In this document: positions 329 through 29,103 of the stretch, piece by piece | Layout of the letters: every line of letters begins with the position of its first letter | Position numbering within the stretch: the first letter of the stretch is position 1 | Source: Liolophura sinensis | Taxonomy: Eukaryota > Mollusca > Polyplacophora > Chitonida > Chitonidae | DNA: 64,000 nt | Direction: 5' to 3' | Assembly: GCF_032854445.1 (NCBI RefSeq) | Contig: NC_088300.1 | Span: 37,104,458 to 37,168,457, forward strand | Program-made: the position numbers and the translations under genes | The notes under the pieces: model-generated | Database searches by the model: none | What the model saw: only the letters and a program-made list of their open reading frames with translations | What the model was told of the DNA's origin: nothing

Positions 329-2563
329 TCAAATGTAATTCGACCGCTTCCACTTGTTGCTGTTTTTCTTATAATTCTTCACCAAAGTCGCCATCGTTGT
401 CATAGCTTCCAGAAGACCTTCGCCCCGAGTCGCGCACGTGGCCTGGACACACCAGTATCTGTCCTTGATTTTCCCCAAGCTCAACCAATCAGCGATCTGA
501 GATGTGTTCATGGCGCCTGTAAAACAACACAAACGAACAAATAAATTACACAATCATAATGAAGTACATGTACATCACAGCTCCGAGATGTTTCTTCTGT
601 CTATGCACATGTATACATGTAATCTTATGGGGAAGTGGGGGGGGGGGGGGGCTCCGTGGTGCCCCAGTTAAGTTAATAGTTGGTTAGCGCGCTAGCGCAG
701 CGTTATGACCGAGGAGCCTCTCACCAATGCTGTCGCTGTGATGGTCGTGGGTTCCCCACCGGGTTCTGGTTTCCACCCACCATATTGCCGCCATATAAGT
801 GAAATATTTTTGAGTACGGCGTAAAACACCAATCAGATAAATAAAATAAATGTGATCTTATGCGCAAACTGTGGTCCTGATACATACGTTCAGTTAATAA
901 GAGAAATTATGAAAATCAGGACGACTATTTGCTTTGACTGTGATGACGGCGCATCTTATTGTCTTCAGCAATAAAATGATATCAGCACGAATAATGTTCA
1001 GTAGTAACAGTAGTACTACAGTAATACTGATGCTGACGAAAATTGATTCTGCTCTATTCTCTCACCTTTCACGTCTTGTTTATTGGCGATCACAAGCAGG
1101 GGAATACCCTTCAATTCCTCAGAGTTGCACATGCGCTTGAGCTCCTGTCGCGCGGCCGGCATACGTTCCTTGTCCGAGCTGTCTACCACGAACAGGATAC
1201 CTACAGGGACGGAAGATTATCAGTGTAAACAGAGACCGGAAGAGAGTATAGAGTCATTTATAAGATAGGCAAGTCGATTAAGCAGCTGCCCGATGCCTTG
1301 TGAGTCCTTGCTCCCACTGATAAGTTAATAGATAAGTGAGATAAATTGGTTTTGAAAGAGTGCACTGATACGCTAAACCGTGTTGGTGTTGTGAGAAATG
1401 CCTGTATGCGCGTTAATTACTGATTGATATGTGAATGTTATGGCTCATTGGTGAATAAATGACTGTCTTTGCGAATTTTATGGTAGACTTTAAATTACTG
1501 AATACACGGAATAACTATTAGACTATAACTATGGAACATGTAATTTTGTTACGGTTCGACTGATTTATCAGATTACCTTGTTGAATGTTCATAAATAAGT
1601 TTATTTAATAATGAATATAATTCCCAGCGAATATTACAAAATTTTAATGTCATTGGTAAGTAGCATATGGCATTGTCTGCCTTGTAATCAATAACCATGT
1701 TGTACCTGTATATGAAATAACATTTCTTGCAAAAAAAATTAATATTAATATTTCATTCATGCAGATATCAATCTTACCATGTGATCCTTTGAAGTACATG
1801 CTCCAAAGTCGCCTCAGTTTCTCCTGGCCGCCGACGTCCCAAACGGTAAACGTGACGTTTTTGCACACCGTCACTGTCTCCACGTTAAACCCTACTGTAG
1901 GCAACGTCTGGACGTCATCCTCATCAAGCTTGATTTTGTATAATATAGTTGTCTTTCCTACAAACAGATTAGTCCATATCATAACTATTTTGTCTACAGA
2001 ATGTGATCATTATTTTGTATAGTATATCGTTGTTTTGTCTAGCAGAGTCACTATTATTTTGCACTGTGTTGTAAACTTGCCTGCAGGGATGAGTCAGAAT
2101 CCTCTCATGACATGTATGACTTGTATTTTCGCTAAATAGCGATGACCCAAGGATAAAATGTATTGACACTGTTGGTGGGATAAGGATATAAAAGTATGGA
2201 CGTACGGGGAAAAATGCCAAATTGAAACAGAGTGTTTTGTGAATCCGGTAAATATTTACAGTTTGGGAACATGAAAGTGACATGCTCTAGATGTCTGGCT
2301 TAATTAATTTTACTCAAAAAAAAAAGGGGATATATCGTTGTGACTTTTGTTTCAAACATTGTGATGTTGTCATATACAAAACAAATGTACGCACACCAAT
2401 AACACCTCTAAACCTGTTCATTGCTTATGCACAATGGTACTTCAATTTTTTTTTTTTTTTTTTATCACTTACCAGCAGAGTCCAGTCCAACCATAAGAAT
2501 TCTGGCAGGAGTGAGATTGAATTCTCCAAAGATGTCTTGTAAACGGGAAATCACTTTACCCAT
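329..2563 (-). CDS. ARF-family small GTPase, divergent first member of the array (197 aa, 4 exons)
   Basis: Coding exons on the minus strand are 2563-2473, 1957-1778, 1200-1066 and 516-329. All junctions are GT-AG, all three introns are phase 1, and the summed frame is open for 197 codons plus stop. The protein starts [13 protein letters not shown], so Gly2 is available for N-myristoylation and is followed by an amphipathic helix, as in ARF proteins. Visible GTPase motifs are the P-loop GLDSAGKT (26-33), switch I threonine 51 in TLPTVGF, WDVGGQ with catalytic Gln75, NKQD (130-133) and CAT (163-165). The family cycles between GDP and membrane-bound GTP states and recruits coats or effectors. 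Exon 2 is 3 nt longer and the C-terminus 18 nt longer than in the four sister genes; the basic tail runs [16 protein letters not shown]. The GLDSAGKT spelling resembles ARL11/ARL14, but subfamily assignment is only inference. A minus-strand AATAAA lies at 142-137, about 190 nt past the stop. Confidence 0.9.
652..850 (+). mobile_element. tRNA-derived SINE-like element, tail type A
   Basis: The element lies inside intron 3 of the first ARF gene, on the opposite strand. It has a head with GGTTAGCGCGCTAGCGCAG, a middle with CGTGGGTTCCCC and GGTTCTGGTTTCCACCCACC, and a tail running AAGTGAAATATTTTTGAGTACGGCG, AAAACACCAATCA and a short AATAAAATAAA repeat. Other copies in the window share these blocks in the same order. 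A G-run (639-651) lies immediately 5'. Confidence 0.7.
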
Positions 2564-27529: not shown

Positions 27530-29103
27530 TCAGTGCCCTCTATGAGACTTTTTAAATTCTTTTACAAGACTGGCCATTTCGCTCAATGATTCGTAGATTC
27601 CGTCACCATTCACTGCGCATGCTCCATGGATGTACCACTTGCGATTCCGCATCTTCGTGAGATGAAGTCCATCGGCAATTTCTGAAGTTCTCATAGCCCC
27701 TAAAATCGGAATAAACAATATTGTAGAATATACAATCATTATAAAAAGAATTCATAAGAATTTATGTAAGCGAATGTAATTTTAATCAAATTTAGAGCAT
27801 TACTTAGAATTCGAAATGTATACATTGTGTATACATTGGCCATTGTTGTGAATCACATAAAAAGAAGAATCGATTAGATCCCCTTTAGTGTTTAAAGTTA
27901 TTTAGTTGAACGTCGAACGCATTTAACCACCACTGATGGGAAAGATTTGCTTCACTTACCTGGCAGATCTTGTTTGTTAGCGATGACCACGACAGGTACG
28001 TCTCTCATCTCGTCACTCTCCAGGATTGTGGATAATTCGTATCTGGCCTCTTCCAAACGTTCTCTGTCAGCACTGTCTACTACATACAACAACCCTGTGT
28101 AAAGAGACATGGCCAGTTATAATCAAGTGTCTTTCTGTACTCAATATATATCATCAAATGAACATTTGCAGTAAAACAAATGTCAAAAGTACAAACCGTT
28201 TTACTGGATTTGGTTGCCATATAACAGCAGCATCAATTACGGCTATAATTAGGTTGAATAAGCAGTCGTTGGGTGTTTCATGTTTTTCTCTGGTGAGTAG
28301 GTTACAGTCGGGCTTACTGCTTTTTTATGCTGAGCATAAGATCTTCAGTCAGTTTAGAATAAATACTTGAAATAAGTACTGACGTGGGCAGCTCCATGAT
28401 ACCACATGTGAGTGATGTGACGTCATAAGAATCATAAATTTTTTTCACATCTGTATCTGCTTAACGTGCAGGTATGTCCACTACAGTTTAACCCTTGAGT
28501 CATAATAGGTTATACAGAAATGGCTTCCTCTATTAACCTCTTCATATTTTACATACCTTCAGTATTCTGGAGGTAGTGTGCCCAGAGAGGCCTGATTTTG
28601 TCCTGACCGCCAACGTCCCATACTGTGAAAGAGATGCCCTTACACGGGCTTACCGTCTCCACGTTAAACCCTATAGTTGGGATCGTGTGCACGTTCTCGT
28701 TCAGCTTGATTTTGTATAGTATCGTCGTCTTACCTGTCCATAACAGATGATTGCATTTATCGTGTTAGCTACAGAAATTATCATAACAATAAATGCCAAA
28801 ATCACTGGCATGTGTATAATATCGTATATTTTAAATAACTATATGAAATAGAGCGTCATGGCTTTATGTAGAGCGGGTCTACCATAAAATGGTACAAACA
28901 AAGTAACTGACTGAGTTCCATTCACAAAATGTCGTTTCACGCACTGAATGACATAAATAATTAAATTAATATCTTGCCGATTAGGTTATAGGCTATTCTA
29001 GGTAATCGTTACCTGCAGCATCAAGGCCCAGCATTAAAATCCTGGCGTGATCATGAGAAAACTGTGAGAATACATCCATTAGCTTGGAGAGAAACAGACC
29101 CAT
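27530..29103 (-). CDS. ARF-family small GTPase (190 aa, 4 exons), fifth and older copy
   Basis: Exons on the minus strand are 29103-29013, 28733-28557, 28094-27960 and 27699-27530. The 91/177/135/170 pattern and phase-1 introns are the same. The N-terminus is [15 protein letters not shown] with Gly2. [31 protein letters not shown] and CAV are conserved. Differences from units A-C include [14 protein letters not shown] in place of [14 protein letters not shown], Ala in place of Ser107, Asp in place of Gly121, NGDG in place of NGEG and an SHRGH end. Introns and flanks are strongly diverged, so this copy split off before the A/B/C duplications. Intact motifs over diverged introns imply purifying selection. 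Confidence 0.92.

Follow-up and report, generated by a model that had tools for sequence, protein, structure and literature searches.

Five ARF-family genes in the window

We analysed a 64,000-nucleotide stretch of the genome of the chiton Liolophura (G000:C6:37104458-37168457; hereafter the window), which carries a cluster of five genes of the ARF family of GTPases. The genome comprises 632 contigs with 609,464,459 bases. The five genes, G1 to G5, lie head-to-tail on the minus strand between window positions 329 and 29103. Each consists of four coding exons, and its reading frame runs uninterrupted from ATG to stop. This arrangement had been proposed in the initial annotation, together with exon lengths common to four of the genes and introns that are all in phase 1, and the gene models bear it out. 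The coding exons measure 91, 177, 135 and 170 nt in G2–G5 and 91, 180, 135 and 188 nt in G1; all 15 introns have GT–AG borders and phase 1.

G1 (2563-329; exons 2563-2473, 1957-1778, 1200-1066 and 516-329) encodes 197 amino acids, including a basic C-terminal tail. The other four genes encode 190 amino acids each: G2 (11336-9939; exons 11336-11246, 10890-10714, 10547-10413 and 10108-9939), G3 (18300-16897; exons 18300-18210, 17854-17678, 17511-17377 and 17066-16897), G4 (24437-22780; exons 24437-24347, 23984-23808, 23373-23239 and 22949-22780) and G5 (29103-27530; exons 29103-29013, 28733-28557, 28094-27960 and 27699-27530). The G3 protein is 98.4% identical to that of G2. Membership of the ARF family (PF00025) is indicated by a profile match in each of the three proteins scanned (208.7 bits for G1, 222.4 for G2 and 221.5 for G5) and by the GxxxAGKT, WDxGGQ and NKxD motifs in all five. 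The putative N-myristoylation site (Gly2) and the GTPase motifs are intact, as first annotated: every protein begins with MG, has serine at position 6 and contains GLDxAGKT, WDVGGQ and NKQD. The fifth motif, for which CAV had been noted in the four related copies, indeed reads CAV in G2–G5 and CAT in G1.

Self-BLAST divided much of the cluster into three tandem units on the minus strand, one at 4312-11668 (~7.4 kb, carrying G2), one at 11669-18632 (~7.0 kb, carrying G3) and one at 18633-24797 (~6.1 kb, carrying G4, with an approximate right edge). Positions 7961-12615 match 14916-19583 at 97.6%, and 4312-5768 match 11669-13197 at 84%. The match of G5 is limited to the gene and ~400 bases upstream. 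The flank at 4312-7876 was considered as a relic of a lost sixth gene, an idea that was rejected because this flank is the start of unit 1; to its left, self-BLAST found no exon relics except G1's own exon 2. Synonymous divergence (dS, NG86 method) was 0 between G2 and G3, 0.058 between G4 and either of them, and 0.30–0.35 between G5 and G2–G4. G1 is 54.7–55.3% identical to G2–G5, with dS near or past saturation. The array is not homogeneous: G2–G4 are recent tandem units, G5 is an older copy and G1 is an ancient paralogue.

Related loci, copy number and constraint

A genome-wide Arf search gave 107 exon-level matches out of 140 candidates, of which only the best were scored, and family loci outside the window were read with a purpose-written spliced aligner. 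The family counts at least 26 loci among these best candidates, namely G1–G5, four further genes (L001–L004) and 17 copies in a tandem array. L001 (C6, 34.33 Mb) is of the G2 type and has CAV. L002 (C1, 75.62 Mb) keeps threonine in the fifth motif. L003 and L004 (both C6, 26.44 Mb) are of the G1 type, and L004 has alanine at the position equivalent to threonine 161 (T161) of Arf1. The three introns of L001, L002 and L004 stand at the same positions as those of G1–G5, so that the exon pattern is common to paralogues on two chromosomes. In the model of L003 the first junction is shifted (the standard junction also appears possible by eye), and the last exon of this gene holds an out-of-frame patch after which the frame is restored before the stop. 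On the window's scaffold, the other ARF-family matches nearest to the cluster, among the best candidates listed, lie at 34.33 and 58.83 Mb, and the cluster of five therefore looks complete.

The array (L005, L026, L027, L006 and L007; C1:37679871-37719539) packs 17 near-identical ARF-like genes into ~40 kb and stands out more than the cluster in the window. Its period is 2419–2427 bases, and neighbouring units are 98.8–99.9% identical (15 comparisons). Sixteen of the 17 copies are intact. The array genes do not have the third intron, their exons measuring 91, 180 and 320 nt.

The assembly (Liolophura japonica, GCA_032854445.1) is described as having 14x HiFi coverage, a mean read length of 8.3 kb and a heterozygosity of ~1.24%, with haplotigs purged by its authors (PMC11068029). 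At these values it is uncertain how many copies the long array holds; the G2/G3 duplication is affected to a smaller extent. Coverage and heterozygosity also lend some weight to the idea that G2 and G3, and some of the 17 array copies, represent alleles duplicated in the assembly and not true paralogues, as do the coding difference of 0.5% between G2 and G3 and the length of the array, which exceeds that of the mean read. Against this idea stand the purging of haplotigs and the count of undetermined bases (N), which is 0 in the window and 0 in the loci of the array. Moreover, the stretches that hold G2 and G3 show 2.4% divergence across 4.7 kb, with 11–16% in their left flanks, and G4 and G5 are clearly distinct; we consider an allelic origin highly improbable. 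A partial genome duplication has been published for Liolophura japonica (PMC12005716), which the tandem units do not require.

The ratio of nonsynonymous to synonymous divergence (dN/dS) was 0.077–0.139 (NG86) in the nine scorable pairs among G2–G5 and L001, and 0.068–0.184 for the same genes with YN00; divergent pairs were left unscored, many of them having no dS under NG86. The low NG86 ratios, together with the integrity of all five window genes, argue against the view of the copies as duplicates that are not expressed or are in decay. That view draws on the differences between G2 and G3, which all change an amino acid, on the one broken copy among the 17 of the array and on the out-of-frame patch in L003, and we think it very unlikely. 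The lineage-specific expansion suggested at first is supported in that intact genes have recently multiplied in tandem (dS 0–0.06 among G2–G4 and dN/dS of about 0.1 in scorable pairs), and the expansion extends far beyond the window, to at least 26 loci. What did not hold is the label of the expanded genes as ARFs, since Arl19, a group discussed below, fits them better. The comparison was confined to one animal genome. No report of an ARF expansion in molluscs was found in the literature searched.

Introns, phylogeny and a proposed Arl19 assignment

Intron positions are given in ARF1 numbering, position 23/1 of ARF4 and the start of ARF1 having been read by eye. Eight family genes (G1–G5, L001, L002 and L004) have introns at 29/1, 87/1 and 132/1. 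Other intron sets mark separate genes in the same genome: ARF1 (L008) has 50/1, 87/1 and 128/0, ARF6 (L020) has 32/1, 66/0 and 133/1, and ARF4 (L009) has 23/1, 50/1, 86/0, 110/0 and 152/0. ARF6 was so labelled from 377-bit matches to solved ARF6 structures, and ARF4 from ARF5 as a narrow top match (303.6 bits vs 303.1 for ARF1) plus the introns; the labels of TRIM23 and the ARL genes go by apparent resemblance. Position 87/1 is common to the family, ARF1 and TRIM23 (L010), the last likewise a separate gene with an intron set of its own, whereas ARF1, ARF4 and TRIM23 all lack 29/1 and 132/1. The 133/1 intron of ARF6 is one codon off the family's 132/1 and was counted as different. In the alignment, an extra residue follows VETV in each of the 10 family rows; at this place ARL4 has five, and there is none in the remaining 12 rows.

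Three trees were calculated, and ARL11 and ARL14 were in none of them. The 16-sequence tree omitted ARL5 (partial), G3, one array copy, ARL3, ARL4, L019 and TRIM23; the 20-sequence tree omitted ARL5, ARL3, G3 and one array copy; and a wider tree omitted ARL5 (partial), G3 and one array copy. With 16 sequences, the family stood apart from ARF1/4/5/6 and ARL1 with a support of 98.1/100. The approximately unbiased (AU) test on this set rejected joining the G2-type genes to ARF1/4 (p 0.003) or ARF6 (p 0.008) and the G1-type genes to ARF6 (p 0.009) or ARL1 (p 0.001). With 20 sequences, it rejected the family with ARF1/4 (p 0.044), with TRIM23 (p 0.022) and with two genes, L019 and L021, that resemble another group, Arl20 (p 0.038). 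Placements with ARL4 (p 0.553) or with ARL4 and ARF6 (p 0.555) were on a par with the best tree; there, ARL4 fell inside the family with weak support (46.5/61).

These results bear on whether the window genes are taxon-specific, fast-diverging ARF1 duplicates set apart only by rate acceleration. Like ARF1, G2 has all the switch motifs, Gly2 and intron 87/1, and the two proteins are 60% identical (109/181). Among solved structures, G4 matches ARF and ARF1 best, with scores of up to 223 bits, and Arf1 is described as duplicating readily (PMC8358228). The Shimodaira–Hasegawa (SH) test, moreover, does not reject the family with ARF1/4 (p 0.112). ARF1 differs from the family, however, in its other introns, in its CAT motif and in having no loop insertion, and it was found at one locus among the best candidates. 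The AU rejections cited above, although drawn from few taxa, speak against the duplicates, as do the introns at 29/1 and 132/1 and the insertion at a site where ARL4 also has one. Fast-diverging ARF1 duplicates are thus improbable, and we rejected the family as ARF1 orthologues on the strength of its intron set and of the AU result, despite the SH value. The expectation that the genes would not be simple ARF1 orthologues is supported by ARF1 being a separate gene and by the AU tests; their description as ARFs proper was not upheld.

Vargova et al. (2021; PMC8358228) describe Arl19 and Arl20 as groups that vertebrates lack. In their account, Arl19 branches with Arl4 beside Arf6, Arl4 breaks its monophyly, and several of its genes have one intron in common with Arf1. 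The window family agrees with each point: among the 20 sequences, it is compatible with placement by ARL4 and ARF6, ARL4 disrupts it in the best tree, and 87/1 is the shared intron. The passages of that survey consulted here mention neither a tandem expansion nor CAV for Arl19, with which the family was compared by description. In the literature searched, the name Arl19 was found in no paper besides this one, and these passages give the group no function.

ARL4 itself (L018), so labelled by resemblance, has ARF6 and ARF1 as its best solved-structure matches. It resembles the family in its insertion in the same loop, a non-threonine fifth motif (CAI) and a compatible tree placement, and differs in being a single exon, compared with three introns in the window genes, L001, L002 and L004. 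ARL11 and ARL14 are reported to derive from Arl4 in vertebrates (PMC8358228).

Arl20, Arf1-like and missing in vertebrates, was initially favoured for the window family. It is described as having three unique introns and one common to Arf1 and Arf4 (PMC8358228), a description that is matched by L019 (C9, 21.1 Mb) and L021 (C9, 11.6 Mb), with introns at 24/1, 50/1, 74/0 and 154/1 (those of L021 converted from the alignment, and 24/1 of L019 read by eye). The family instead has two unique positions, 29/1 and 132/1, plus 87/1, whereas ARF4 has 86/0. L019 and L021 are likewise Arf-like relatives with introns, but they differ in intron set, in the replacement of the catalytic glutamine by arginine and in the AU result (SH p 0.069), and Arl20 was rejected for the family. 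Where the family has WDxGGQ, L019 and L021 have WDLGGR or WDIGSR, and they carry a C-terminal extension. Because the catalytic glutamine is replaced, their hydrolysis of GTP may be weak.

Of the named groups tested, Arl19 fits the window family best, and we infer the name from that fit. The family could instead belong to an ARF-like group of molluscs or lophotrochozoans that has no name yet and is distinct from both Arl19 and Arl20. Of the >2000 sequences in the survey, 160 were not assigned to any group (PMC8358228), and the match to Arl19 is one of description. Yet the family has the Arl19 traits given in the text, and the Arl20 description is matched by other genes; an unnamed group is possible but seems to us the less credible explanation.

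Neighbouring features, fifth motif and a proposed switch

In molluscs, genes that are methylated and widely expressed are characterised by CpG depletion. The coding ratio of observed to expected CpG (CpG o/e) was 0.69–0.97 in 13 family rows and 0.26–0.59 in 11 other ARF/ARL genes (exact p 6.3e-5, 7 vs 11 loci, with G3, G4, L003, L014, L016 and L021-L023 left out and the array entered as a single value). The flanks were also high at L001 (0.91), L002 (0.84), L004 (0.82) and the left side of the array (0.91), and family introns were about as high. Overall, CpG o/e is ~0.8–0.9 at L001, L002 and L004, whether in genes, introns or flanks, as well as in the array's genes and left flank, and ~0.2–0.6 at most other ARF/ARL loci, whose flanks are mostly low; the flanks of ARL5, ARL6 and ARL4 are high (0.72–0.94). 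High CpG as a sign of restricted expression was rejected, as the contrast is regional: introns, flanks and an unrelated p24 gene in the window are equally high. The specialised role suggested in the initial annotation is not firmly supported, as the CpG contrast at first read as a sign of it proved regional.

This p24/TMED gene is an intronless full-length frame on the plus strand at 31324-32007 (EMP24_GP25L, 148 bits) that lies ~2.2 kb from G5 in divergent orientation. The 13 further p24 matches listed are all partial, as expected of genes with several exons. ARF1 is bound by certain p24 proteins. No family locus has any of these 13 matches within 2 Mb, and the adjacency to G5 is therefore probably chance. 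Further along the window, a 30-copy 51-bp minisatellite at 51817-53364 is open on both strands (frames of 546 and 475 amino acids), and these frames are probably a non-coding artefact. A 167-amino-acid open frame (stop to stop) on the minus strand at 39951-40454 contains MAGVSIGTIGAG near its start and has no Pfam match.

ARF motifs combined with Gly2 imply a myristoylated GTP switch. Each window protein would be N-myristoylated on Gly2, its GTP-bound form would insert the N-terminal helix into a membrane, and effectors would be recruited through the ARF-type switches. T161A is listed as a fast-cycling mutation of Arf1 (PMC4337568), and T157A of ARF6 is called fast cycling (PMC10272126). T161 corresponds to the last residue of CAV and CAT; there, G2–G5 and L001 have valine and L004 has alanine. 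ARL4 proteins presumably exchange nucleotide rapidly. With valine in this position, G2–G5 would probably exchange nucleotide faster and depend less on exchange factors, and they may activate themselves, since CAV stands where alanine makes ARF1 fast-cycling. Most likely the copies would provide extra dose or tissue-specific control for a membrane process outside housekeeping Golgi traffic; that traffic can be served by the ARF1, ARF4 and ARF6 genes elsewhere. This is the least supported step.

We put at about 0.55 the probability that the cluster is part of a large chiton expansion of an Arl19-like GTPase group, with the switch mechanism proposed here. Several observations weigh against this. 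The 20-sequence AU test does not reject the family with ARF6 alone (p 0.097), the SH test on the same sequences rejects no placement (lowest p 0.069), and the wider tree grouped the G2-type genes with ARL3/ARL4, unsupported. The Arl19 assignment combines a main-text description with elimination within one genome. Three amino-acid changes but no synonymous ones separate G2 from G3 (dS 0), and two copies of the 17-copy array gave a dN/dS of 0.553, so the inference of constraint does not cover the youngest copies. At the T161-equivalent position of this genome, ARL1 and ARL4 have isoleucine and ARL5 has leucine, while threonine is kept in G1, L002 and the array. A test of the N-terminal helix was mixed, shuffles reaching the observed moment in 0.2–9.4% of cases. 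The CpG contrast follows the neighbourhood, with a ratio of 0.86 in the p24 gene, and hence is no evidence on expression. The fuller proposal, that Arl19 was amplified to dozens in chitons and that one branch (valine in five genes, alanine in one) would be a self-activating, exchange-factor-independent and dose-controlled membrane switch, is doubtful.

The cluster is probably a lineage-specific expansion, and the kind of gene expanded is an ordinary one. ARF-family genes, usually seen as fixed housekeeping parts, can amplify in tandem, and the 26-locus Arl19-like group, with its three recent tandem units and a change at a nucleotide-cycling residue, offers natural variants for tests of function.

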